A stretch of 49,811 nt of DNA from Salegentibacter sp. (GTDB taxonomy: Bacteria; Bacteroidota; Bacteroidia; Flavobacteriales; Flavobacteriaceae). Where the stretch lies: the NCBI GenBank assembly GCA_024635795.1, contig JAGXIH010000015.1:1-49811 (forward strand), written 5' to 3'. The number at the start of each line of letters is the position of its first letter. Position 1 is the stretch's first letter. Position numbers and translations under genes: made by a program. This document shows positions 6,066-39,360 of the stretch, piece by piece. The notes beneath the pieces were generated by a model that was given only the letters and a program-made list of their open reading frames with translations, was not told where the DNA came from and ran no database searches.

Positions 6066-6627
6066 AAAATTTGTGAATATCTATTAGCGGGATTATTCAG
6101 CAGGCCTTTTATTAATTCTATTTTTGGCTCCCTAAAAAAAATGATATGAGCGTAACTTGGTATGAATGTAAGGTGAAATACAAAAAAACACACGAGACAG
6201 GAGAGCAAAAAGTAAGCACCGACACCTATTTGCTTGATGCGGTATCCTTTACAGAGGCAGAGTCAAGGATCACCGAAGAGATGAAAGCTTATACCAGTGA
6301 AGATTTCAGGATCATGAATATAAAGGTCGCCAACTTTTCAGAGGTGCACCCCTTCGAAAACTCCGATCGCTGGTTTAAATCAAAGGTTTCCCTGGTAGCC
6401 CTTGATGAAGAGAGTGGGAAAGAGAAGAAGACCAACATTTATCTAGTGGTACAGGCCAGCGATGTAAAGGAGGCTTTTGAAAATACCACTAAAGCTATGG
6501 AAGATACTATGGGCGATTACAGCATCCCCTCGATCACCGAATCTCCCATCCTGGACGTATTCCCATATTTCACCGGGGAGGAAGAACAATTGGAGAAATT
6601 CAATGTTTTGGAGGATCCTGAAACTAC
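6066..6627. repeat. Duplicated segment, copy 1 (promoter plus DUF4494 gene)
   Basis: Matches 9678-10239 at a constant offset of 3612 bp without indels, from about 80 bp before the start codon to near the end of the conserved domain. Differences are scattered and mostly synonymous in the coding part. Confidence 0.93.
6119..6126 (+). promoter_or_regulatory. Bacteroidota -7 box TATTTTTG
   Basis: An exact match to the TAnnTTTG consensus, 20 bp before the start codon. It is conserved unchanged in the duplicate at 9731-9738. No clean TTTG -33 element is seen at the usual distance. The short distance to the start gives a very short leader. Confidence 0.6.
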
Positions 6628-6706
6628 AGGAGAAGCAGGGGAAGCAGAGCAACCTAAAGTCCCGGAAACCGAGACAACAGAAGTACCCGAAGAGCTGAAA
6701 GTATAG
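6146..6706 (+). CDS. DUF4494 domain-containing protein, copy 1
   Basis: A 186-residue cytoplasmic protein that begins MSVTWYECKVKYKKTHETG and carries the DUF4494 domain over residues 1-155, with signatures such as FTEAESRITEEM, NIKVANFSEVHPF and NIYLVVQA. DUF4494 is a Bacteroidota family of unknown role. The C-terminal tail (from about 156) is acidic, Pro/Thr/Glu-rich and differs from the other copy. The ATG at 6141 is followed in frame by a stop two codons later (ATG-ATA-TGA) and overlaps the true start region, giving a two-codon mini-ORF upstream. It is monocistronic, with a terminator at 6740. The second copy at 9758 is about 95 percent identical over the domain. Confidence 0.85.
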   Translation: MSVTWYECKVKYKKTHETGEQKVSTDTYLLDAVSFTEAESRITEEMKAYTSEDFRIMNIKVANFSEVHPFENSDRWFKSKVSLVALDEESGKEKKTNIYLVVQASDVKEAFENTTKAMEDTMGDYSIPSITESPILDVFPYFTGEEEQLEKFNVLEDPETTGEAGEAEQPKVPETETTEVPEELKV

Positions 6707-9677: not shown

Positions 9678-10239
9678 AAAATTTGTGAATATCTATTCGC
9701 AGGATTATTCAGCAAGCCTTTTATTAATTCTATTTTTGGCTCCCTAAAAAAAATGATATGAGCGTAACTTGGTATGAATGTAAGGTGAAATACAAAAAAA
9801 CACACGAAACCGGAGAGCAAAAAGTTAGCACCGACACCTATTTGCTGGATGCGGTGTCTTTTACAGAGGCAGAGTCAAGAATTACTGAAGAGATGACCGC
9901 CTATACCAGCGAAGATTTCAGAATAATGAATATTAAAGTCGCCAACTTTTCAGAAGTCCACCCCTTCGAAAACTCCGATCGCTGGTTCAAATCAAAGGTT
10001 TCTTTGGTAGCACTCGATGAAGAGAGCGGGAAGGAAAAGAAGACCAACATTTATTTACTGGTGCAGGCCAACGATGTAAAAGAGGCTTTTGAGAATACCA
10101 CTAAAGCTATGGAAGATACTATGGGCGATTACACCATCCCGTCTATTACAGAATCTCCAATCCTGGATGTTTTCCCGTATTTCACCGGGGAAGAAGAACA
10201 ACTGGAGAAATTCAATGTCCTGGATGATCCTGAAACTTC
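9678..10239. repeat. Duplicated segment, copy 2 (promoter plus DUF4494 gene)
   Basis: Counterpart of 6066-6627, same direction and offset, including the -7 box TATTTTTG (9731-9738) and the ATGATATG start arrangement. Confidence 0.93.
9731..9738 (+). promoter_or_regulatory. Bacteroidota -7 box TATTTTTG
   Basis: Identical to the box before the first DUF4494 copy and at the same distance from the start codon. Confidence 0.6.
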
Positions 10240-10282
10240 AGAAGAAGAAAAAGTGGAAACAGAGGAATCGGAAACTGCTTAA
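9758..10282 (+). CDS. DUF4494 domain-containing protein, copy 2
   Basis: A 174-residue paralogue of the protein at 6146-6706. Residues 1-150 differ at only a handful of positions (for example MTAYTSED instead of MKAYTSED, LLVQANDV instead of LVVQASDV). The acidic tail after about 155 is shorter and unrelated in sequence (EEEKVETEESETA). Many changes between the copies are synonymous, so both appear to be under selection. It has the same two-codon mini-ORF before the start. It is followed by a strong bidirectional terminator shared with the convergent stress-protein gene. Cytoplasmic, role unknown. Confidence 0.85.
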   Translation: MSVTWYECKVKYKKTHETGEQKVSTDTYLLDAVSFTEAESRITEEMTAYTSEDFRIMNIKVANFSEVHPFENSDRWFKSKVSLVALDEESGKEKKTNIYLLVQANDVKEAFENTTKAMEDTMGDYTIPSITESPILDVFPYFTGEEEQLEKFNVLDDPETSEEEKVETEESETA

Positions 10283-11134: not shown

Positions 11135-12541
11135 ATGAAAACTAATACCATAGCTTCAGATCAAGTAATTTCTTCCGCAGATAAGTCTGCTTTTAATGAA
11201 TTTTCCAAACAGAAAAACAAGGTCAGGGATCTCAGAGGGATAATGGTACGGGCAAGTAGCCTGGCCCTACTTTTTGGTGCCGCATACCTGGTTTATGCCT
11301 TACAAGGTGATTTCAGCCGATATAATCTTGATGGCCTTAATTCAACCTGGGGAATGGCCATTTTTGTGATCACAGGTTTCTTGCTTTTATTCAGAGCCGG
11401 ATTCTTTTTCTATAACCTGTATCTCTACCTGCGCTATAAACCGATTTCCTCAGTAAGCAATGAGAACCTACCCACCTGCACCGTGATAGTGCCTGCCTAC
11501 AATGAAGGAAAGCAGGTATGGGCTACACTGATGAGCCTGGCAAAAAGTGACTATCCTGCCCATAAGCTGGAGTTACTGGCCATTGACGACGGGAGTAAGG
11601 ATGATACCTGGGAATGGATGCTGAAGGCTAAACGTGAACTGGGTGATCGTGTGAGCATCTATCAACAAACTCAAAACAAAGGAAAGCGTCACGCCCTCTA
11701 CCGCGGATTTAACATTGGAACCGGGGAGGTTTTTGTCACTGTAGACAGCGATTCTGAAGTTACCAATGATACCTTGCGCAACCTGGTGAGTCCTTTCATA
11801 GTGAACGAAAAATGTGGAGCGGTAGCGGGGAACATTCGCGTTCTCAACAACGAAAAAAAGTCTATGCTGCCCAAGATGCTGGATGTGAGCTTCGTACTGA
11901 GTTTCGAGTTTGTTCGCTCTGCTGAAAGCAGTTTGGAATCGGTGCTTTGTACTCCGGGTGCTCTGGCTGCCTACAGAAGAAAAGCTGTTTTTGGCTGTCT
12001 TGATGAATGGATCAACCAGACCTTTATGGGGAAAGCTTCAGATATCGGAGAGGATCGTGCTATGACCAACATGATCCTGAAGCAGGGGTATCACGTCCTC
12101 TTTCAGAGAAACGCTTTTGCCTATACCAACGTACCCGAAAAATACACCGGACTCTATAAAATGTTTATCAGATGGGGGAGAAGTAATGTTCGTGAGAATA
12201 TTGCAATGGCAAAATATGTATTCACCGATTTCAGGGAAAGCTCCAAAACAGGATCGCGACTGCTATTCCTTAACCAGGTATTGAAGCTGGTGATGAGCTA
12301 CCCTACAATTTTGATGATGCTTTTCTTCATCTCTATGGATCCTGTCCTGTTCTTAAGTTCAACCCTTCTGAGCATCTTGATCTGGTCGAGCTTCCCGGTG
12401 CTGTTCTATGCGAAGAGATATAATTTATCCGAATCCTTCTGGGCGTATTCCTACAGCATTCTCTATACCTTTGGCCTATTCTGGATCACTCCATACGCTA
12501 TTGCCACCGCGAGTAAAAGGGGATGGCTTACCCGTGGGTAA
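11135..12541 (+). CDS. Processive family 2 glycosyltransferase (hyaluronan/chitin synthase-like), membrane
   Basis: A 468-residue membrane glycosyltransferase that would add sugars from a nucleotide donor to a growing polymer at the inner membrane. Two N-terminal membrane helices lie at about 40-57 and 72-100. The GT2 domain starts at about 112 (TCTVIVPAYNEG). The donor-binding Asp are in AIDDGS (about 150) and TVDSDSE (about 203). The acceptor motif GEDR is at about 305 and the processive-type RWGRS (a Q/RxxRW variant) at about 345. C-terminal membrane helices lie at about 385-460. The order matches NodC/HasA-like synthases. It is monocistronic. A decayed copy of the C-terminal half lies at 15093-15643. 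The polymer made is not deducible. Confidence 0.85.
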   Translation: MKTNTIASDQVISSADKSAFNEFSKQKNKVRDLRGIMVRASSLALLFGAAYLVYALQGDFSRYNLDGLNSTWGMAIFVITGFLLLFRAGFFFYNLYLYLRYKPISSVSNENLPTCTVIVPAYNEGKQVWATLMSLAKSDYPAHKLELLAIDDGSKDDTWEWMLKAKRELGDRVSIYQQTQNKGKRHALYRGFNIGTGEVFVTVDSDSEVTNDTLRNLVSPFIVNEKCGAVAGNIRVLNNEKKSMLPKMLDVSFVLSFEFVRSAESSLESVLCTPGALAAYRRKAVFGCLDEWINQTFMGKASDIGEDRAMTNMILKQGYHVLFQRNAFAYTNVPEKYTGLYKMFIRWGRSNVRENIAMAKYVFTDFRESSKTGSRLLFLNQVLKLVMSYPTILMMLFFISMDPVLFLSSTLLSILIWSSFPVLFYAKRYNLSESFWAYSYSILYTFGLFWITPYAIATASKRGWLTRG

Positions 12542-14967: not shown

Positions 14968-15092
14968 AATTCTGATTTTGATTAGTAATTGAGCTTAATT
15001 TCAGGTAGGTGGTAAGAAGGGGAATTCTAATATACCAAATAATTATATAATTATAAACAATTGAACATCAAATGATTTTTTATGGTGTGAAT

Positions 15093-15643
15093 GGGTGCGG
15101 GCGCCCTGCTGCCTACAGAAGAAAAGCTGTTTTTAGCTGTCTTGATGATTGGATCAACCAAACCTTTATGGGGAAAACTTCAGATATCGGTGAGGATCGC
15201 GGAATGACCAATATGATCCTGAAGCAGGGGTATCACGTCCTTTTACTAGAAACGCCTTCGCCTATACCAACGTACCCGAAAAATACACAGGACTCTAAGA
15301 TGTCAGGTGGGGAAGAAATAATGTTCGGGAGAATATTGCAATGGCGAAATATGTATTCACAGATTTCAGGGAAAGCTCTAAAACAGGATCGAGACTTCTG
15401 TTTTTTAACCAGGTATTAAAACTGGTGATGAGCTATCCTACAATTTTCCTGATGCTTTTCTTTATCTCTATGGATCCGGTTCTGTGGTCTGGCTTCCCGG
15501 TCTTGTTCTATGCGAAGAGATATAATTTATCTGAATCTTTCTGGGAGTATTCCTATAACATTGTTTACACCTTTGGCTTATTCTGGATTACTCTCTACGC
15601 GATTACCACCGCAAGTAAAAAGGGTTGGCTTACCCGTGGCTAA
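15093..15643 (+). pseudogene. Decayed partial copy of the GT2 glycosyltransferase gene
   Basis: Matches 11955-12541 of the intact gene (last ~195 codons) and the first ~25 bp after its stop. It lacks the 5' two thirds. The frame is broken at about 15240 (one-base loss near CACGTCCTT) and again near 15295-15320, where the stretch that should encode YKMFIRWG is shortened and carries an in-frame stop after GL. About 27 bp are also lost near 15485. Much of the sequence between the breaks is still close to the parent. The residual reading frames are therefore not functional. It sits just upstream of the start of the minus-strand S9 peptidase gene. Confidence 0.9.
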
Positions 15644-16161: not shown

Positions 16162-19100
16162 ATGCACATCATTAATGCCCACCAAAACAATCTCAAAAAT
16201 ATTGATTTAAGCATTCCTGAAAATCAATTGATTGTGGTGACCGGTTTATCGGGTTCCGGGAAATCGTCTCTGGCTATGGACGTTATTGCTAATGAAGGAT
16301 ATCGCTATTTTCTGGAGAGTCTCCCTGCTTATAACCAACAAAATGCGCAGATGATTCCCACTGCTGAAGTGGACGATATAGAAGCCTTACCACCGGTGAT
16401 CAAGGTGGAGCAATCAAAACGCTTCCAGTCTATTAATGCCACTTTCGGTACCCTGTCAGAACTCGCTGCTGTCTTTAGAATTTTATTTGCCCGTTATGCC
16501 GGCACTGAGACCATGAGCAAGTCGCTCTTTTCTTTCAATCACCCAAAAGGGGCTTGTGAGCGCTGCCATGGTATTGGTCAGGCAGAATATATCGATCTTG
16601 AAAAGTTGGTCGGAGATGAAAACAAAACCCTTAGAGAAGGGGCCATCACCACTACCTTACCTAATGGCTATATCGTCTATTCCCAGATCACCGTTGATGA
16701 ATTAAATAAAGTCTGCCAGGCCCATGGTTTTAGTGTAGATATTCCCTGGAAGGAACTCACGGATGAACAAAAAGATGTGGTTTTAAATGGAAGTGATCGC
16801 ATCAAAGTTTTTTATGGAAAACATACTTTGGAGTCCCGGCTAAGATGGGAAGGCTTGAAGGCAAAACCCCGGGAAGAAGGCTTTTATAAAGGCATGCTTC
16901 CCATTATGAAGGATATTCTAAAACGCGATCGCAATCCGAATATCCTGAAGTTTGCCAGTTCCAAAACCTGTCCGGATTGTAAGGGAGCACGGATTAAAGC
17001 TGAACACCTGAAATATAAATGGAGGGGCCTGAACTTTCGGGAATGGATGGATCTTCCCTTAATCGACTTATATGATAGCCTGAAAAGCCTGGAGGTGACA
17101 GCCGGGGAACAAGTATTGGTTGATAAGATTTGTACTCAGTTGTTCGACCTGATAAGACTCGGAATGGAGGAATACCGGTTAAGCACTCCAAGTACTGAAA
17201 TTTCTTCCGGAGACGCACAGCGTATCAAATTGATCAAGCAGGTAAACAGTAGCCTGCAAGGTATTCTTTATGTATTTGATGAACCTTCCATCGGTTTATC
17301 TGAAGACTACCAAAACTATTTACTCCATATTCTTAATCGCTTGATTAGCCGTGGAAATACGGTCATGGTGGTAGAACACGACTTAAATTTTATCGGATCT
17401 GCAGATTGGATAGTGGAATTAGGCCCGGCCGCTGGTGCTTACGGAGGAGAAGTAGTTTTTAACGGTCCGATACAGGAATTTTTAAATGCGAAAGGCCTAT
17501 CGAGCCCCACCTTAGCTGAATTACAAAAAGCAGATTCCAAATCTGATAAAGAACCTAAACGAGAAACAGCAGATTCATTTCAGCCTCAATTAGGGGAATT
17601 GACTGTAGTGGGTAGGAAAACACCTCAAATGTTGCAAAAGCTTTCCCGATATTGTGAACAAGAGGACTTAAAACTGCTTGCGGTATCCGATCAACCCATT
17701 GGCAAAACCCCCAGAAGTAATCCTGCTACTTATACCGGCCTGGCTGACAAAATACGTGACCTATTGGCTAAATCCCCGGAAGCGAAATCCCTGAAATTGG
17801 CTAAAGGAGCCTTTTCTTTTAATAATAAGAGTGGAAGATGTGAAGCCTGTGAAGGGGCGGGTGTGATCACCCTCTCCATGAATGTGATGGGCACTATCAA
17901 CCAGATTTGTCCGAACTGTAATGGTAAGCGTTTTAAGGATGAAGTATTGCAAGTGCATTGGAACAATAAAAATATTGCTGAAATCTATAATCTGAGTATA
18001 ACGGAAGCTTATGATTTCTTTACCGATGAGAAGAAAATCACCAAAATACTATCTTTGATGTTGCAATTGGGCCTGGGGTATATCAAACTTGGCCAACCTT
18101 CCAACACCTTATCAGGGGGGGAAGCGCAACGCATTAAACTCACTAAGCATTTTGCCAAACAATCAAAAAAAACTCTTTTATTGCTGGAAGAACCCAGTAT
18201 TGGATTACATCAGCAAAATGTGAGGCAGCTGCTAAAAGCTTTGCACCAGCTCAAAAATCAAACGGCTGGTATTATTTGCTTTGAGAATCAACCACTTTTT
18301 CAATCTTCCTGCGATACGTGGGTAGATAATGCCATAAAAGCTCCAGTGCTGGAGCTAAAAGAAGCACTAGATCAGCGCAGGGATACGGTCTCCATAAAGG
18401 GGGCTCGAACGCATTATCTCAAAGACCTGGACGTAGAAATACCCAAAAATGAATTATCCGTGGTTACGGGAATTTCTGGTTCAGGTAAATCATCTCTGGT
18501 GATTGACACCCTGCATGGCTACGGGCTTCAGGAAATGACCAAACAATTTTCGAGTTATCAGCTGTCCAGGGTAGGAGTGAATTTTCAGTTTGAAGTAGAT
18601 CATATTGAAGGGCTGAGTCCAACTATTTGCGTTACGCGGAAAGAAAAGAGCTTTACAGACCGCTCCGATATTGCCAAACAAACGGGAATAGATAAGATTT
18701 TACGTTTTGCCTTCTCCAGAAAAGCGCAGTATGAAGGAAAGGAATTATCAGCCAGTCATTTTTCTAATAATCACGAATTGGGAAAATGTGCCGTATGTGA
18801 TGGTATGGGTCAGGAATTGCTCCCTGATCTGGATAAAATAGTGCTCGATGATGAAAAGAGTATCGCTGAAGGAATTTTTGAGCACAACAAATCCCTGGCC
18901 TATTATGGTCAGGCGAGCAGCCAGTATATGGCGATCGTAAAGGAGCTGGGCACCAAATATGGATTTAGCCTGGAAACACCTTTTAAGGAACTGACCGATA
19001 AACAAAAAGACATTTTATTCCATGGGGCGGGTGAAACGGTGTGGAAAGCCCAATGGGTATATAAGACCAAAACCCGGGAAGGAATTCAGGAGGTAAGTAT

Positions 19101-20652
19101 GAAATGGGAAGGGCTCTTTCACTACTTAAAAGAAGAATATTATAAAACCCGGAAAAATAAAAATATAGACAAACTCAAGGCACTTTTCTCTCTTTCGGAA
19201 TGTGGCCATTGTGCGGGAAGTGGATTAAAGCCGGAACGACTGGTCTTTCAAATTGGAGGGAGATCCATTCATGGAATAAGGTTGATGGATTTTAAAGCTT
19301 TGGAAAACTGGCTTTCTGATGATTCTAAACAAGAGGAGATGGATCAAAAACTCATCTCCAATATTCAACCTCATTTGATCAACACCATTAAGCGGGCAAA
19401 GCAGTTGCATATAGATCATCTGCAACTCAACCGCAAATCCACTACGCTTTCCGGTGGAGAAAACCAACGGGTAGCACTTATCAAACAGTTAAACTCACCG
19501 CTCAAAGGCATCACCTATCTGTTAGATGAACCTTCAGCAGGATTATCCAATGACAATATTCTCGATCTGATCAACATTTTAAAAGAACTTATTGCAAAAG
19601 GCAATACGGTCATTGTGATTGAGCACAATAAGGAGATTATTCTGGAGGCTGATCAGTTGCTTAAACTCGGCCCTCAGGCGGGTAAATTGGGAGGTTATAT
19701 TACTTATCAGGGCAGTCCTCAGGATTATTTGAAACAAGCCGATTGTCATCCTTTTTTGAAGGAAGCTTCCAAAGCGATCGAGCTAAAAGGAGCAAAAAAG
19801 GCTATTGCCATCCGGAAACTCTCCAAACACACCTTAGTGAAAGATGCACTGGAAGTGCCTGTTGGAGGAATCACAGCCATTAGTGGTAAATCGGGAATAG
19901 GGAAGACCACCCTGGTTAAAGACATCCTGATTCCGAGCATTGAGACAGGCAAGCCGGTCAATTGTGAAAGTATAGTTTTCCCAAAGAAGTATTTAGGTGC
20001 ACATTATTTTGAGTCTAAAAAACTACGATCCCATGCCAATACCTTGTTAGTTTCTTATTTGGATCTGCTGAAGGAAATAAGCAAGATCTTTGCAAGCGAA
20101 ACAGGACTCAAGGCTCGTGACTTTTCTTATAAAACAAAAACAAGTCAGTGCCCAAACTGCAAAGGCAAAGGCTATTTGGAAACCAGCCTGGATGTAGCCG
20201 CCAATGCGATTGAAAAATGCGAAGTATGTAAAGGGCAACGCTATCAGTCGCATATTTTGGAACATACTGTTGATTCTAAAAATATCGCGGAGGTACTCGG
20301 CTTTAATCTTAACGAATTAAAGGAATGGTTTGAGGAGATGAAGGTTACTGATAAAACCCTTCAATTCTTAAATCAGTTGGAGGAAATCGGGTTAATGCAT
20401 CTTAGCATAGATCAGCCGGTGCAATCCCTTTCTTCGGGGGAGAAGCAGCGATTGTTGTTATTGAACTGGCTGCAGGACCGGGCTACTAATGCACTTTATG
20501 TTTTAGATGAACCCAGCACCGGCTTGCATTATGCTGATATTGATCTCTTGTATGGGATACTAAACAAACTCAGCCAGGCCAATGATATTCTGATTATTGA
20601 TCATAATCCGTATTTGTTGGGAAAAATTGGGGTTGGTGTAGTTTTAGAATGA
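16162..20652 (+). CDS. Tandem UvrA-like ABC ATPase fusion (two UvrA-type units, four NBDs)
   Basis: A 1496-residue soluble protein. Unit 1 is residues 1-735. NBD1 has Walker A GLSGSGKSS (28-36), zinc pairs CERC (about 132) and CPDC (about 271), a degraded signature EISSGDAQR and Walker B VFDEPS. NBD2 lacks any Walker A loop, but keeps the UvrA hallmark IGKTPRSNPATYTG (about 512), zinc pairs CEAC/CPNC, a perfect LSGGEAQR (about 650) and Walker B with Glu for Asp (LLLEEPS). Unit 2 is about 745-1496. NBD3 has GISGSGKSS (about 770), CAVC/CGHC, LSGGENQR and LLDEPS. NBD4 has GKSGIGKTT (about 1242), CPNC/CEVC, LSSGEKQR and LDEPSTGLH. Ordinary UvrA is about 950 residues with two NBDs. I see no clear UvrB-binding domain. 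It may act in DNA damage recognition, drug tolerance or defence; the role is unknown. Monocistronic. Confidence 0.88.
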   Translation: MHIINAHQNNLKNIDLSIPENQLIVVTGLSGSGKSSLAMDVIANEGYRYFLESLPAYNQQNAQMIPTAEVDDIEALPPVIKVEQSKRFQSINATFGTLSELAAVFRILFARYAGTETMSKSLFSFNHPKGACERCHGIGQAEYIDLEKLVGDENKTLREGAITTTLPNGYIVYSQITVDELNKVCQAHGFSVDIPWKELTDEQKDVVLNGSDRIKVFYGKHTLESRLRWEGLKAKPREEGFYKGMLPIMKDILKRDRNPNILKFASSKTCPDCKGARIKAEHLKYKWRGLNFREWMDLPLIDLYDSLKSLEVTAGEQVLVDKICTQLFDLIRLGMEEYRLSTPSTEISSGDAQRIKLIKQVNSSLQGILYVFDEPSIGLSEDYQNYLLHILNRLISRGNTVMVVEHDLNFIGSADWIVELGPAAGAYGGEVVFNGPIQEFLNAKGLSSPTLAELQKADSKSDKEPKRETADSFQPQLGELTVVGRKTPQMLQKLSRYCEQEDLKLLAVSDQPIGKTPRSNPATYTGLADKIRDLLAKSPEAKSLKLAKGAFSFNNKSGRCEACEGAGVITLSMNVMGTINQICPNCNGKRFKDEVLQVHWNNKNIAEIYNLSITEAYDFFTDEKKITKILSLMLQLGLGYIKLGQPSNTLSGGEAQRIKLTKHFAKQSKKTLLLLEEPSIGLHQQNVRQLLKALHQLKNQTAGIICFENQPLFQSSCDTWVDNAIKAPVLELKEALDQRRDTVSIKGARTHYLKDLDVEIPKNELSVVTGISGSGKSSLVIDTLHGYGLQEMTKQFSSYQLSRVGVNFQFEVDHIEGLSPTICVTRKEKSFTDRSDIAKQTGIDKILRFAFSRKAQYEGKELSASHFSNNHELGKCAVCDGMGQELLPDLDKIVLDDEKSIAEGIFEHNKSLAYYGQASSQYMAIVKELGTKYGFSLETPFKELTDKQKDILFHGAGETVWKAQWVYKTKTREGIQEVSMKWEGLFHYLKEEYYKTRKNKNIDKLKALFSLSECGHCAGSGLKPERLVFQIGGRSIHGIRLMDFKALENWLSDDSKQEEMDQKLISNIQPHLINTIKRAKQLHIDHLQLNRKSTTLSGGENQRVALIKQLNSPLKGITYLLDEPSAGLSNDNILDLINILKELIAKGNTVIVIEHNKEIILEADQLLKLGPQAGKLGGYITYQGSPQDYLKQADCHPFLKEASKAIELKGAKKAIAIRKLSKHTLVKDALEVPVGGITAISGKSGIGKTTLVKDILIPSIETGKPVNCESIVFPKKYLGAHYFESKKLRSHANTLLVSYLDLLKEISKIFASETGLKARDFSYKTKTSQCPNCKGKGYLETSLDVAANAIEKCEVCKGQRYQSHILEHTVDSKNIAEVLGFNLNELKEWFEEMKVTDKTLQFLNQLEEIGLMHLSIDQPVQSLSSGEKQRLLLLNWLQDRATNALYVLDEPSTGLHYADIDLLYGILNKLSQANDILIIDHNPYLLGKIGVGVVLE

Positions 20653-34440: not shown

Positions 34441-34563
34441 CTACTGATGTAATAATGCTAACTAAAACATTCAACTAAAGGTTTTGATAGCTTCCGCTGG
34501 ATTTTCTCAAATAGGATTTTGCTATTGGACTTTTCTTATAAACAACCACCAATACCAATTATT

Positions 34564-37500
34564 ATGAAAGAAAAACTACTCAAAATTTTATTTGTAATTC
34601 TTTGCATAAGCAGTTTTACCAGCCTGCAAGCTCAATCCTACGATTACCTTGCCCTGGTTGGAGACGCGACTTCTGCCGGCTACAACCCTTACGGAACGAT
34701 AGACACGAGAATGGAGGAGACCTCTCCGGGTGTCTGGAAATGGGAAGGCTCCCTGAAAGGTTCCGGTTTGTTTAAGATACACACCGTGGAAGGCGACTGG
34801 TGTGATGGTGAATGGTTAGGACCTGTAAATAACGAAGATGTTCTGCCTGCTACTCCTTACCCCTATAATAATTGGAATGGATGTGATGAAGATCTTAAAT
34901 GGGCAGTTCCGGCAGATGGATTTTATGCCATTACGGTCGACACCAATGCCGGTATGATCATTAGTGAAGAATTGACCCATTACCCGAATTTATACCTTAT
35001 AGGTTCTGCCACTGTGAGCGACTGGGATGCAGGTCAGTCCAGGGAAATGACACAGGAGCCTTCGAATCCTGCCATCTTCACCTGGGAAGGCAACCTGGAC
35101 CAGGACTTTTATAATGGGGGATTCAATGATGCTGAGTTCAAGATTCTAAGCGTACGTACTTCTGAGCCCGGCTGGGATGAGATAAGAGCCACCTCGGCCT
35201 ACGAGGACCCTTTGAGTTCAAATTCTTTTGTAGTGGAAGAAGGAGGAACCGGGAATGACGATCAGTGGCAGATCACCGATGCTAATCGGGGGAGCTACCG
35301 GATCACGTTAAATCTGGATGCTCAGACAATAAATTTTGAAAGACTTAATTATTATCCAAATCTGTATGTAGTAGGAGATGCTACAACAAAAGGTTTTGAT
35401 CCGTGGTCCGAAGACCTGAAATTCACCCAGGATGAAACAGATCCTGAACTTTTTAGCTATAGAGGGGAATTTAATCCTGGCGGTTTTAAGATCCACACTT
35501 ACGTTGGTGACTGGGGTTGGGGAGACTATATTGTCGCAACCGCAGCAGACCAGGATATATCAGCAACCGATTATGAAATTAACAGGCAGGAACAGGGCAA
35601 TGACTATAAGTGGGCTATAACTCAGGCCGGGATGTATACTATTACCCTGGATCAGGCTTCCAATACAATAAATATAATTCTGGATACAGATGGAGATGGC
35701 ACTAAGGACAGCGAAGATGCCTTTCCCGAAGATCCTACAGAAGATACCGACACCGATAACGATGGAATAGGCAATAATGCCGATCCGGATGATGACGGTG
35801 ACGGGCAAACAGATGAAGATGAAATTGCTTGTGGTTCAGATCCATTAGATTCGTCATCAATGTCTCCTGATACTGATGAAGACGGGATACCAGACTGTGT
35901 GGATTCAAATGACGATACTGATACAGATGGGGATGGAATTCCTGATGTAACTGATCCTGATGATGACGGTGACGGGCAAACAGATGAACATGAGATTGAA
36001 TGTGGCTCCGATCCTTTAGACGCTTCTTCAATATCTAATGATACTGATGGCGACGGGATACCTAATTGTGTGGATTCCGATGATGACGGGGATGGAGTAA
36101 TCGATGAAGAAGATGATTTTTCTCTCGATCCAACAGAAGATACTGATACCGATAATGATGGAATAGGCAATAATGCCGATCCTGATGATGACGGGGATGG
36201 GCAATTAGATGAAGATGAGCTCGCTTGTGGTTCAGATCCATTGGATCCACTTTCTATGGCTACTGATACCAATGGTGACGGAACTCCCGATTGTAAGGAA
36301 GAAATTCCATATCAATATCTTGCCTTGGTTGGCGACGGGACTTCTGCAGGCTGGAATCCTTATGGGACCATAGACACAAGAATGGAGATGGTCTCCTCCG
36401 GCGTTTGGAAATGGGAAGGCACCCTTAAAGGTTCCGGAACATTTAAAATACACACCGTCGAAGGTGATTGGTGTGATGGTCAATGGTTAGTCCCTGCAAA
36501 TGACGAAGATATTCTGTCTTCTACTGCATATTCCTATAATGTTTCCTTTGGTTGTGAAGCTAATGACAATAATTGGGCTGTGCCGGAAGATGGATCTTAT
36601 GCTATTACTGTTGACACGAATACCGGTACTATCGTAAGTGAAGAATTGACCCATTTATCCAATTTATATATAATTGGCTCTGCCACTGTGAGCGACTGGA
36701 GTGCAGATCTTGCAAGGGAAATGACACAGGACGCTTCCAATCCTGCCATTTTCACCTGGGAAGGAAATCTTGACCAGAACTATGATGAGGGATTCAATAA
36801 TGGGGAGTTCAAGATCCTCAGCGTGCGTACTTTTGAAGACGGTTGGGATGAAATAAGAGCTACTTCGGCCAACGCAGATCCTTTGAGTTCCAATTCTTTT
36901 GTAGTGGAAGAAGGAGGAACCGGAAATGACTATAAGTGGCAGATCACCGATGCTAATCGTGGTAGCTACCGGATCACCCTAAACCTGGATTCTGAAGAAA
37001 TAAATTTCGAAAGACTTGATTATTATCCAAATCTTTATGTAGTTGGAGATGCTACAGCCAAAGGTTTTTACCCCTGGTCCGAAGACCTGAAATTTACCCA
37101 GAATGAAACCAACCCTGAGTTATTTAGCTATAGAGGTGAATTTACACCTGGCAGCTTCAAGATCCACACTTACATTGGGGACTTTTACTGGGGAGACGAC
37201 ATCGTCCCTTCCGCAGCAGACCAGGATATCTCGGCCAGCGATTATGAAATAAACCGACAGGGACAAGGCAATGATTTTAAGTGGTCTATAACCGAAGCCG
37301 GGATATATACCATCACTTTAGACCAGGCTACCAATACTATAAATATCATTTTGGATACAGATGGCGATGGCACTAAGGACAGCGAAGATGCTTTTCCTGA
37401 AGATCCAACAGAAGATACCGATACCGATGAGGACGGCATAGGAAATAATGAAGATCCCGATGACGACGGTGATGGGCAAACAGATGAAGATGAGCTTGCT

Positions 37501-39360
37501 TGTGGTTCCAATCCTTTAGATCCTTCTTCAATATCTGTTGATACCGATGGCGATGGAATACCGGATTGTTTGGATCCCGATAATGACGGCGATGGTGTTC
37601 CTGATGAAGAAGATGCATTTCCTCTGGATCCAAACGAAGATACCGATACAGATAATGATGGTGTCGGAAATAATGAAGATCCGGATGATGACGGTGACGG
37701 GCAAACAGATGAATACGAAATTGAATGCGGTTCAGATCCTTTAGATGCTACTTCTATTTCTGATGACACTGATAACGATGGAATACCTGACTGTGTAGAT
37801 TCAAATGATGATACAGATACAGATTCAGATGGAACTCCTGATGTATCTGATCCTGATGACGACGGTGATGGACAAACAGATGAACATGAGAATGAATGTG
37901 GTTCAGATCCTTTAGATGCTTCTTCAATATCTGTTGATACTGATGGCGATAGGATACCCGATTGTGTGGATCCCGATGATGACGGTGACGGGCAAACAGA
38001 TGAACATGAGCTTGAATGCGGTTCAGATCCTTTAGATCCTTCTTCAATGTCTGTTGATACTGATGGCGACGGTATACCCGATTGTGTGGATCCCGATAAT
38101 GACGGAGATAGCGTTCCCGATGAGGATGACGCATTTCCACTTGATCCAACGGAAGATACTGATACCGATAATGATGGTTTAGGAAATAATGCTGATCCAG
38201 ATGATGACGGGGATGGCCAAACAGATGAAGATGAAATTGCTTGCGGCTCCGATCCTTTAGAGGCTTCTTCAGTTTCTCCTGACACCGATAACGATGGAAT
38301 ACCCGATTGTGTAGATACCGATGATGACGGGGATGGAGTGATAGATGAAAACGATGCTTTTCCTCTTGATGCTTCGGAAAATACTGATACGGACAATGAT
38401 GGTATAGGTAATAATGAAGACCCGGATGATGACGGTGACGAGCAATCGGATGAAGATGAAATTGCCTGTGGTTCCGATCCTTTAGATGTTTCTTCAGTTT
38501 CAATTGATACTGATAATGATGGGATACCCGATTGTGTGGATCCCGATGATGACGGGGATGGAGTAGAGGATTCTCAGGACGAGTGTCCTAATACAGATCC
38601 CGATGCCGTAGTAGGCTTAAATGGTTGTGAAATTTTCTCCTTACCACTGGATAATTATACGGTTGAATCTACTAACACCACATGTAATGGCAAAACGAAT
38701 GGAAAAATTCGTGTAAGTGCGGCCGCTTCGGGATACAATTACATGGTCAGTATACCAGATCATGATCCTGTCTCCCTGCCCGATACTTATTCTCTTGACT
38801 ATACCTTCACCGGGTTGGCTCCCGGCATTTATCCGGTATGTTTTACCATTGAAGGACAGGAGGATTACAAACAGTGTTTTGAGGTGAAAATTAATGAACC
38901 TGAAGCAGTCATGGCAACTACCGAAATAGACTATAATGCATCAAGGATGAAAATTAGATTAGATGGTCCCGATAAATTTTATGTGTCTGTAAACAATAAA
39001 GTCCGGATACTAACCGCAGGCACATACGAAATAGACCTTAAAAACGGAATGAATGAAATAAGTATAACAGGTGAGCAGGAATGCCAGGGTGAGTATTTTG
39101 AAAGGATCTTTGTTTCTGAAGCTGTGAGGCTTTATCCTAATCCTAGCTCCGGTCCTGTGCAAATATACATACCCGGGCTTGATAACAGTGTTGATATAAG
39201 CGTGCTAAGTCTCAATGGCGCTCAGGTTTGGATAGATAAAGTGCAGGTCAATGATTCCAGGGTTATAGAAATAAATCTTGGGCATCTTGAAGTTGGGACT
39301 TATATACTTAAGATAAACGGCGAAGAAACAAATGATACACTTAAAGTGATTATAAAATGA
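34564..39360 (+). CDS. Giant type IX-secreted glycan-binding protein: 6 SusE/F-like modules, 2 TSP3 tracts, sorting domain
   Basis: From the ATG at 34564 there are 1598 residues with signal peptide MKEKLLKILFVILCISSFTSLQAQ; an upstream in-frame start at 34519 would bury this signal. Residues 26-373 are three SusE/F-like modules (LVGDATSAGYNP, LIGSATVSDWD, VVGDATTKGFDP). About 374-578 is a thrombospondin type 3-like calcium-binding tract (DTDGDGIPDCVD, DPDDDGDGQTDEDE). About 583-929 repeats the three-module block nearly exactly, and 930-1352 is a second, longer TSP3 tract. About 1353-1515 is an uncharacterised beta-rich part. The end (VRLYPNPSSGPVQIYIPG to LKVIIK) is a type A T9SS sorting domain. 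The protein would be exported through T9SS and attached to the surface or released, with Ca2+-stiffened spacers holding the binding modules. No catalytic domain seen. Its stop overlaps the next start (ATGA). Confidence 0.88.
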   Translation: MKEKLLKILFVILCISSFTSLQAQSYDYLALVGDATSAGYNPYGTIDTRMEETSPGVWKWEGSLKGSGLFKIHTVEGDWCDGEWLGPVNNEDVLPATPYPYNNWNGCDEDLKWAVPADGFYAITVDTNAGMIISEELTHYPNLYLIGSATVSDWDAGQSREMTQEPSNPAIFTWEGNLDQDFYNGGFNDAEFKILSVRTSEPGWDEIRATSAYEDPLSSNSFVVEEGGTGNDDQWQITDANRGSYRITLNLDAQTINFERLNYYPNLYVVGDATTKGFDPWSEDLKFTQDETDPELFSYRGEFNPGGFKIHTYVGDWGWGDYIVATAADQDISATDYEINRQEQGNDYKWAITQAGMYTITLDQASNTINIILDTDGDGTKDSEDAFPEDPTEDTDTDNDGIGNNADPDDDGDGQTDEDEIACGSDPLDSSSMSPDTDEDGIPDCVDSNDDTDTDGDGIPDVTDPDDDGDGQTDEHEIECGSDPLDASSISNDTDGDGIPNCVDSDDDGDGVIDEEDDFSLDPTEDTDTDNDGIGNNADPDDDGDGQLDEDELACGSDPLDPLSMATDTNGDGTPDCKEEIPYQYLALVGDGTSAGWNPYGTIDTRMEMVSSGVWKWEGTLKGSGTFKIHTVEGDWCDGQWLVPANDEDILSSTAYSYNVSFGCEANDNNWAVPEDGSYAITVDTNTGTIVSEELTHLSNLYIIGSATVSDWSADLAREMTQDASNPAIFTWEGNLDQNYDEGFNNGEFKILSVRTFEDGWDEIRATSANADPLSSNSFVVEEGGTGNDYKWQITDANRGSYRITLNLDSEEINFERLDYYPNLYVVGDATAKGFYPWSEDLKFTQNETNPELFSYRGEFTPGSFKIHTYIGDFYWGDDIVPSAADQDISASDYEINRQGQGNDFKWSITEAGIYTITLDQATNTINIILDTDGDGTKDSEDAFPEDPTEDTDTDEDGIGNNEDPDDDGDGQTDEDELACGSNPLDPSSISVDTDGDGIPDCLDPDNDGDGVPDEEDAFPLDPNEDTDTDNDGVGNNEDPDDDGDGQTDEYEIECGSDPLDATSISDDTDNDGIPDCVDSNDDTDTDSDGTPDVSDPDDDGDGQTDEHENECGSDPLDASSISVDTDGDRIPDCVDPDDDGDGQTDEHELECGSDPLDPSSMSVDTDGDGIPDCVDPDNDGDSVPDEDDAFPLDPTEDTDTDNDGLGNNADPDDDGDGQTDEDEIACGSDPLEASSVSPDTDNDGIPDCVDTDDDGDGVIDENDAFPLDASENTDTDNDGIGNNEDPDDDGDEQSDEDEIACGSDPLDVSSVSIDTDNDGIPDCVDPDDDGDGVEDSQDECPNTDPDAVVGLNGCEIFSLPLDNYTVESTNTTCNGKTNGKIRVSAAASGYNYMVSIPDHDPVSLPDTYSLDYTFTGLAPGIYPVCFTIEGQEDYKQCFEVKINEPEAVMATTEIDYNASRMKIRLDGPDKFYVSVNNKVRILTAGTYEIDLKNGMNEISITGEQECQGEYFERIFVSEAVRLYPNPSSGPVQIYIPGLDNSVDISVLSLNGAQVWIDKVQVNDSRVIEINLGHLEVGTYILKINGEETNDTLKVIIK
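34639..35684 (+). repeat. Internal duplicated block A (three binding modules)
   Basis: Encodes residues 26-373 of the giant protein. The same order of three distinct modules recurs at 36310-37353 with high protein similarity (for example NSFVVEEGGTGND and ANRGSYRITLNLD in both). Confidence 0.88.
35685..36309 (+). repeat. Thrombospondin type 3 calcium-binding repeat tract 1
   Basis: Tandem acidic repeats in the giant gene with DxDxDG loops and paired cysteines (ACGSDPLD with GIPDCVD). The DNA is repetitive GATGATGACGG-type sequence. Confidence 0.85.
36310..37353 (+). repeat. Internal duplicated block B (three binding modules)
   Basis: Second copy of the block at 34639-35684, in the same frame and order, separated from it by the first TSP3 tract. 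Confidence 0.88.
37354..38620 (+). repeat. Thrombospondin type 3 calcium-binding repeat tract 2
   Basis: Longer tract of the same acidic repeats, about 420 residues, ending DECPNTDPDAVVGLNGCE, the usual closing TSP3 unit. Near-identical DNA units make it prone to length change. Confidence 0.85.

Follow-up and report, generated by a model that had tools for sequence, protein, structure and literature searches.

The window analysed here, a 49,811-nucleotide stretch of Salegentibacter sp. (contig JAGXIH010000015.1), encodes a protein in which two UvrA-like units are joined head to tail in one chain with four nucleotide-binding domains (NBDs), and in which one ATP site, the distal site of unit 1, has decayed. 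The gene is a single uninterrupted forward-strand frame from ATG to stop at 16162-20652, specifying 1496 amino acids (aa). An earlier note, made from the letters of the DNA, had described this fusion at exactly this place, with one NBD lacking its Walker A loop; the observation is confirmed as real, and the interpretation given with it is partly supported. Our counts refer to 84 distinct full-length tandem proteins, all from Bacteroidota and including that of the window: 71 close relatives (1493-1529 aa), to which fractions of 71 apply, and 13 distant ones (1537-1638 aa). Chain length is conserved in the close set, as is the motif loss, the glycine loop of NBD2 being gone in all 71. All 84 are single frames, and a sequencing join of two separate genes is therefore ruled out.

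Structure predictions were made unit by unit (residues 1-735 and 736-1496), and Foldseek matched both predicted folds to UvrA chains of the PDB. The two halves share 31% identity over 762 alignment columns and are connected by a linker of about 20 residues. The NCBIfam UvrA model TIGR00630 matches the chain in five stretches. Scored separately, both units fall under its curated cut-off of 729.8 (598.2 for unit 1, 500.2 for unit 2), and the whole chain exceeds it (1087.9) only by adding both units. Zinc modules 2 and 3 and the insertion domain are present, with 16 zinc cysteines each conserved in 71/71. At E ≤ 1e-8 neither unit matched the UvrB-binding domain UvrA_inter (PF17760), which is present in the genome's two canonical UvrAs.

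According to passages of two papers (PMC6486640; PMC10192343), signature II completes ATP-binding domain I in the proximal site of UvrA, and signature I completes ATP-binding domain II in the distal site. An excerpt of the former adds that every UvrA ortholog carries Arg five residues before the distal-site signature and Gln before the proximal-site one (PMC6486640). Three Walker A loops are present, GLSGSGKSS (residues 28-36), GISGSGKSS (770-778) and GKSGIGKTT (1242-1250), and NBD2 retains PIGKTPRSNPATYTG (512-526), its Cys pairs, LSGGEAQR and a Walker B reading LLLLEEPS, in line with the earlier note. The elements lost from unit 1 lie without exception in its distal site: the NBD2 glycine loop, signature I, the Arg at position -5, the Walker B Asp and the switch His. 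Signature I, which shares the composite site with the ATP-binding half of NBD2, is degenerate too, a change that the earlier note overlooked, and the Arg before it is replaced by Thr (65/71) or Ser (6/71). The Walker B Glu-Glu (EEPS in 66/71, DEPS in 2/71, other residues in 3/71) reflects an Asp to Glu change, the second Glu being the normal catalytic one. In NBD2 the switch His is missing from all 77 rows (6 of them duplicates); in NBD1 it is kept in 71/71. A cryptic P-loop in NBD2 was looked for and only a Lys-Thr/Ser remnant was found, within a conserved [RK]-K-[TS] turn; the AlphaFold2 model still predicts a strand (480-483), a turn (484-487) and a helix (488-500) there. The claimed loss of the P-loop thus holds for the glycine loop and has to be softened for the Lys-Thr/Ser pair. 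The motif losses in NBD2 and signature I support the proposal of an asymmetric, probably non-hydrolysing site, and the distal site of unit 1 is probably dead in practice. The proximal site of unit 1 is intact. Unit 2 retains both P-loops and signatures, and Arg precedes signature 3 and Gln signature 4 in 71/71, so that the distal-Arg/proximal-Gln rule holds there.

Judged by their motifs, the 13 distant tandems appear to span a series from an intact to a dead distal site of unit 1. The site is intact in three (L116, L118 and L172). Two (L111 and L112) have GKAS in the P-loop and LT[RN]GE as signature, and retain the switch His. Six (L117, L119, L120, L168, L169 and L171) keep the P-loop, which reads GKAS in L119, have LRxSE as signature I, and have lost the Walker B Asp and the switch His. 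In L115 the P-loop Lys, the Arg at -5, the Walker B Asp and the switch His are all lost. In the remaining one, L113, signature I is the only change at this site, and the decay lies in unit 2. This protein, from Perlabentimonas gracilis, is a mirror-image case, with GSIGSGKTQ in NBD4, LSSGELKW as signature 3 and DSP in Walker B 4. We infer from the series that hydrolysis was lost first and ATP binding after it. The Arg at -5 is lost in both lineages without the P-loop Lys (the close clade and L115) and kept in the other 12 distant tandems. Since L115 clusters with L117, L119 and L120, apart from the close clade, complete loss occurred at least twice, each time together with the Arg.

Between distant homologues, insertion domain 1 appears to be the most conserved part of the chain. 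Identity of the window protein to the distant tandem G348 is 64% in insertion domain 1, 45% in NBD1, 40-46% in the rest of unit 1, 4% in the linker and 36% in insertion domain 2. G348 was found by a whole-protein search, so this comparison is not biased toward insertion domain 1. Further distant tandems, all of them found through that domain, gave 64-67% for insertion domain 1 and 28-36% for insertion domain 2. Among close tandems conservation of insertion domain 1 (0.86) does not exceed that of the ATP-binding part of NBD1 (0.87). Nine pairs were tried for the ratio of nonsynonymous to synonymous substitution rates (dN/dS); in all five usable pairs, within Salegentibacter, the ratio was lower for insertion domain 1 (0.035-0.053) than for the whole gene (0.085-0.137), the four pairs with other genera having saturated dS. 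For Ecm16, a passage of PMC10192343 states that the insertion domain is required for DNA binding and sets specificity.

The window protein resembles class II UvrA, represented by Ecm16/DrrC (PDB 7sh1), in being a stand-alone ATPase with zinc modules 2 and 3, an insertion domain and no UvrB-binding domain. Ecm16, however, is a homodimer of two-NBD chains, whereas the window protein, like the other distinct tandems, is a four-NBD chain, and its two units have diverged, one distal site having decayed. Excerpts of PMC10192343 state that Ecm16 carries ADP in four sites and that its resistance is independent of UvrB. Short class II single UvrAs stand apart from unit 1 in our trees. Some class II singles are on plasmids and one lies two genes from a tryptophan halogenase in Streptomyces globisporus C-1027, a setting that is a lead and not evidence for the window protein. 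With canonical UvrA of nucleotide excision repair (TIGR00630) the window protein shares the domain order, zinc modules 2 and 3, TPRSNPATYTG in NBD2, and the proximal-Gln/distal-Arg rule at three of its four sites. It differs in being fused, in its missing UvrA_inter match, in the score of each unit below the TIGR00630 cut-off, and in unit 1, which lacks two intact composite ATP sites, the distal one being degenerate. The double-length UvrA model NF001885 (PRK00635, 1809 positions) gave 676.5 bits against a curated cut-off of 3054, and model positions 116-256, filled by canonical UvrAs, have no counterpart in the window protein. The model is chlamydial and has two UvrA units per chain, in agreement with its length; the comparison was with the model itself. 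ABC heterodimers with one degenerate ATP site, of the TAP and CFTR type, are transporters; as in these, both halves of one composite site have decayed together while another site is intact, but the window protein is a DNA-binding protein of UvrA type. Open-licence PMC papers yielded no fused, tandem or asymmetric UvrA, which does not imply absence from print. Single UvrAs of about 840 aa from Bacteroidota carry LS[PA]GE as signature I in 12/12 rows, with both P-loops intact (L032-L034, L036-L038, L125, L128-L131 and L141).

Thirteen of 14 other Salegentibacter genomes contain the gene (1495-1498 aa, 74-93% identity); in the one without it (G010) the surrounding DNA was unmatched as well. A tandem-size frame occurred in 12 of 299 genomes of a family sample, the source genome included (11 close, one distant, G348), and in a phylum sample (n = 395, two candidates scored per genome) the source genome and G704 had one among the matches listed. 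A profile of insertion domain 1 (A1) found 272 relatives in a named genome collection. The best 80 of the 272 were analysed and comprised 75 full-length tandems, four cut by contig ends, and one without a long frame, L092, which stands in a complete genome record of Lacinutrix neustonica. In a class sample A1 matched 7/395 genomes at E ≤ 1e-25: the source genome, five with frames of 1581-1625 aa (L170 being identical to L119) and one with a 399-aa frame; none of the seven matches lay in a frame of single-UvrA size. By record name, tandem hosts belong to Flavobacteriaceae, Crocinitomicaceae, Cyclobacteriaceae, Marivirgaceae, Saprospiraceae, Tenuifilaceae and unplaced bacteria.

In unit trees built without Ecm16, unit 1 and unit 2 each fell on one side of a branch, with 16 rows each in one tree (Shimodaira-Hasegawa-like approximate likelihood ratio test 100) and 17 rows each in the other (bootstrap 98 and 100), which favours a single origin of the sampled fusions. 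Unit 1 grouped with canonical UvrA in one tree and with canonical and long single UvrAs in the other, not with unit 2. A common clade of both units, as expected from an internal duplication, was not rejected (p = 0.308, approximately unbiased test, p-AU), though the units are sisters in neither tree. Host genera were tested for monophyly in a quick tree of 49 rows chosen from the tandems, and all three tested were rejected: Salegentibacter (p-AU 7e-45), Marivirga (8e-7) and Mesonia (2e-65). No operon or neighbour family is conserved over 77 loci with up to six frames on each side, the widest family reaching 11/77 at scattered positions. The earlier description of a solitary gene is supported, and its remark about nearby accessory genes carries no weight. 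Within Salegentibacter the main DNA match covers the gene and at most about 100 bases upstream, with little downstream, in 11/13 genomes; parts of the flanks are common to some species only. Because neighbours are not conserved and host-genus clades are rejected, the gene probably moves between hosts, passing between Bacteroidota as a stand-alone unit, and transfer would explain the tree conflict. One tandem, recorded as Salegentibacter sp. R32 (L105), lies within a Mesonia clade, by transfer or as a misnamed record. None of 103 viral-contig stretches that matched the search pattern encodes a relative of insertion domain 1, and 43 of 50,697 phage records match the protein at E ≤ 1e-30, all below 60% identity (10 rows seen). 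The Bacteroidetes-type promoter pattern is complete in 1/68 upstream stretches, and its -7 part is present in 21/68.

We hypothesize that the protein is a UvrB-independent sensor of DNA lesions or DNA ligands, similar to Ecm16/DrrC and built as an asymmetric double unit, a reading we regard as plausible and somewhat short of probable. The design is shared by many Bacteroidota and thus suggests a machine specialised in DNA protection, not one of ordinary repair. The reading builds on the observed architecture, the motif loss at one site with its series among homologues, the missing UvrB-binding domain, the lack of conserved neighbours and the conflict of the tree with host genera. The protein would be a self-contained DNA-scanning ATPase of UvrA fold, in which the two units probably stand in for the protomers of a UvrA dimer. 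The reader would be unit 1, with its conserved insertion domain and the intact signature II face (TPRSNPATYTG, zinc hairpin), and it would recognise altered DNA of a single fixed kind, most likely DNA to which a small molecule is bound or attached. As the distal pocket of unit 1 would no longer bind or hydrolyse ATP, this unit would cycle only at its proximal site, and unit 2, which keeps both ATP sites, may drive release or displacement. No hand-over to UvrB would be expected because neither unit has the UvrB-binding domain. Excerpts of PMC7835731 and PMC6486640 tie the distal site to distinguishing damaged from native DNA, and describe a distal Walker A mutant that retains DNA-stimulated ATPase at the proximal site. 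A reading unit without a distal site may be committed to one-site cycling, discrimination being left to insertion domain 1 or unit 2; this commitment is the weakest link of the proposal. A stronger version seems possible and more doubtful: an obligate hetero-pseudo-dimer in one chain, with unit 2 as power stroke, serving UvrB-independent protection that spread by transfer among marine Bacteroidota. Here commitment to a single DNA target would have led the reading unit to surrender its lesion-discriminating distal site.

Several points weigh against the proposal of a transferable sensor with unit 1 as reader. Apart from G348, the distant homologues were found through patterns or a profile of insertion domain 1, which favours a conserved insertion domain 1, and the median net charge is the same in both insertion domains. 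Lys486 and Thr/Ser487 are conserved too well for a pocket without a role. Signature 4, in the proximal site of unit 2, has changed and TPRSNPATYTG, kept in NBD2, is gone from NBD4; some decay therefore lies outside the distal site of unit 1. Two chains could pair with each other in place of units 1 and 2 within a chain, and the 77 loci offer no operon partner. Brumimicrobium, Zunongwangia, Echinicola, Sinomicrobium and Robertkochia, each represented by at least two rows, stay together in the 49-row tree, and the conflict seen for other genera could stem from old paralogues with loss or from misnamed records.

An accessory repair sensor that feeds host excision, for instance through contact of its signature II face with UvrB or as an aid to a canonical UvrA, is unlikely. 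The genome does hold two canonical UvrAs with the UvrB-binding domain, and a passage of PMC6486640 states that UvrA contacts UvrB through signature domain II too; yet that domain was found in neither tandem unit, and no neighbour family, of repair or any other kind, is conserved. The genome had no UvrB above cut-off, which says little at 61.6% completeness. We also consider it improbable that tandem chains form homodimers with eight NBDs, or that the decayed site is a regulatory pocket holding another ligand through Lys-Thr/Ser. The persistence of both residues despite the lost loop speaks for such a pocket, but the model has merely a short turn between strand and helix at the remnant.

Defence, an option raised in the earlier note and taken here as action against phages or plasmids by sensing invading or modified DNA, would suit the patchy spread, the tree conflict with hosts and the stand-alone gene. 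It gained no support and seems quite improbable: conserved neighbours of any kind are missing, and the top PADLOC match, mad3 of the MADS defence system, is non-specific, giving 270.1 bits for the window protein against 312.7 and 313.8 bits for the genome's canonical UvrA pair. The viral contig scan, with no relative of insertion domain 1, also stands against it, although defence genes are not necessarily carried by viruses. A decaying or selfish copy of UvrA that has no particular role could account for the decayed ATP site, the lost NBD4 motif and the homologue without a long frame in Lacinutrix. This is very improbable for a gene under purifying selection, as its dN/dS indicates, with a chain held near 1496 residues and every zinc cysteine kept.

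The roles of the four UvrA sites in lesion finding, discrimination and release have been studied with point mutants of the homodimer, which hit both protomers. The tandem family is a natural experiment in which the ATP sites of a single chain can be addressed singly, and its living members range from four intact sites to three. It adds a widespread UvrA branch without the UvrB-binding domain, and the strikingly fixed recognition domain gives a direct lead to some DNA-targeting compound or lesion that these bacteria meet. Features of the gene are collected in Table 1.

Table 1. Features of the tandem UvrA-like gene in the window (pLDDT, predicted local distance difference test; rmsd, root-mean-square deviation)
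Feature	Position	Strand	Support
Tandem UvrA-like ATPase, whole gene, 1496 aa	16162..20652	+	Single frame in all 84 distinct full-length tandems
Unit 1, residues 1-735: NBD1, insertion domain 1, NBD2	16162..18366	+	AlphaFold2 mean pLDDT 86.5; Foldseek vs Ecm16 7sh1_B TMt 0.82, rmsd 2.8
NBD1 Walker A GLSGSGKSS, proximal site of unit 1, intact	16243..16269	+	Identical 71/71
Insertion (DNA-contact) domain 1 core, residues 141-268, between the Cys pairs of zinc module 2	16582..16965	+	PF17755 match at residues 145-218
Degenerate signature I ISSGDAQR (usual LSGGE), distal site of unit 1	17200..17223	+	ISSGD 69/71; Arg-5 lost 71/71
NBD1 Walker B LYVFDEPSIGL, intact	17266..17298	+	FDEPSIGL 71/71
NBD2 P-loop remnant LTVVGRKT, residues 480-487, glycine loop deleted	17599..17622	+	Lys486 70/71, Thr/Ser487 70/71
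NBD2 motif PIGKTPRSNPATYTGL, kept	17695..17742	+	TPRSNP[AS]TY 70/71
Signature II TLSGGEAQRI, proximal site of unit 1, intact	18106..18135	+	LSGGEAQR 71/71; Gln-5 71/71
NBD2 Walker B with Glu-Glu LLLLEEPSIGLH; downstream switch His replaced (FEN)	18175..18210	+	EEPS 66/71
Unit 2, residues 736-1496: NBD3, insertion domain 2, NBD4	18367..20649	+	AlphaFold2 mean pLDDT 88.2; Foldseek vs Ecm16 7sh1_B TMt 0.79, rmsd 4.2
NBD3 Walker A GISGSGKSSL	18469..18498	+	P-loop 71/71
Insertion domain 2 core, residues 885-1012	18814..19197	+	PF17755 match; evolves faster, 36% to G348
NBD3 signature TLSGGENQRV, distal site of unit 2	19444..19473	+	LSGGE 71/71; Arg-5 71/71
NBD3 Walker B TYLLDEPSAGL	19513..19545	+	DEP[ST]AGL 71/71
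NBD4 Walker A GKSGIGKTTL	19885..19914	+	P-loop 71/71
NBD4 stretch at the expected place of TPRSNPATYTG, motif lost	19975..20058	+	Sequence comparison
NBD4 signature SLSSGEKQRL, proximal site of unit 2, mild change	20425..20454	+	LSSGE 70/71, LSGGE 1/71; Gln-5 71/71
NBD4 Walker B LYVLDEPSTGL	20494..20526	+	LDEP[ST] 71/71

Elsewhere in the window, two nearly identical genes lie 3.6 kb apart (6146-6706 and 9758-10282), the second matching DUF4494. A family 2 glycosyltransferase gene (11135-12541) is followed 3.1 kb on by a broken, partial 3' copy (15072-15643) with blocks 86-94% identical, which stands upstream of the UvrA gene. Downstream, 23132-44745 is a SusC/SusD-type polysaccharide locus that starts with a DUF6377 protein and a TonB receptor; the genes after the receptor are, as we take it from their translations, SusD-like, SusE/F-like and glycoside hydrolase genes. 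Within it, 34519-39360 encodes a protein of 1613 aa that by eye has long Asp-rich repeats of calcium type and repeated SusE-like stretches.

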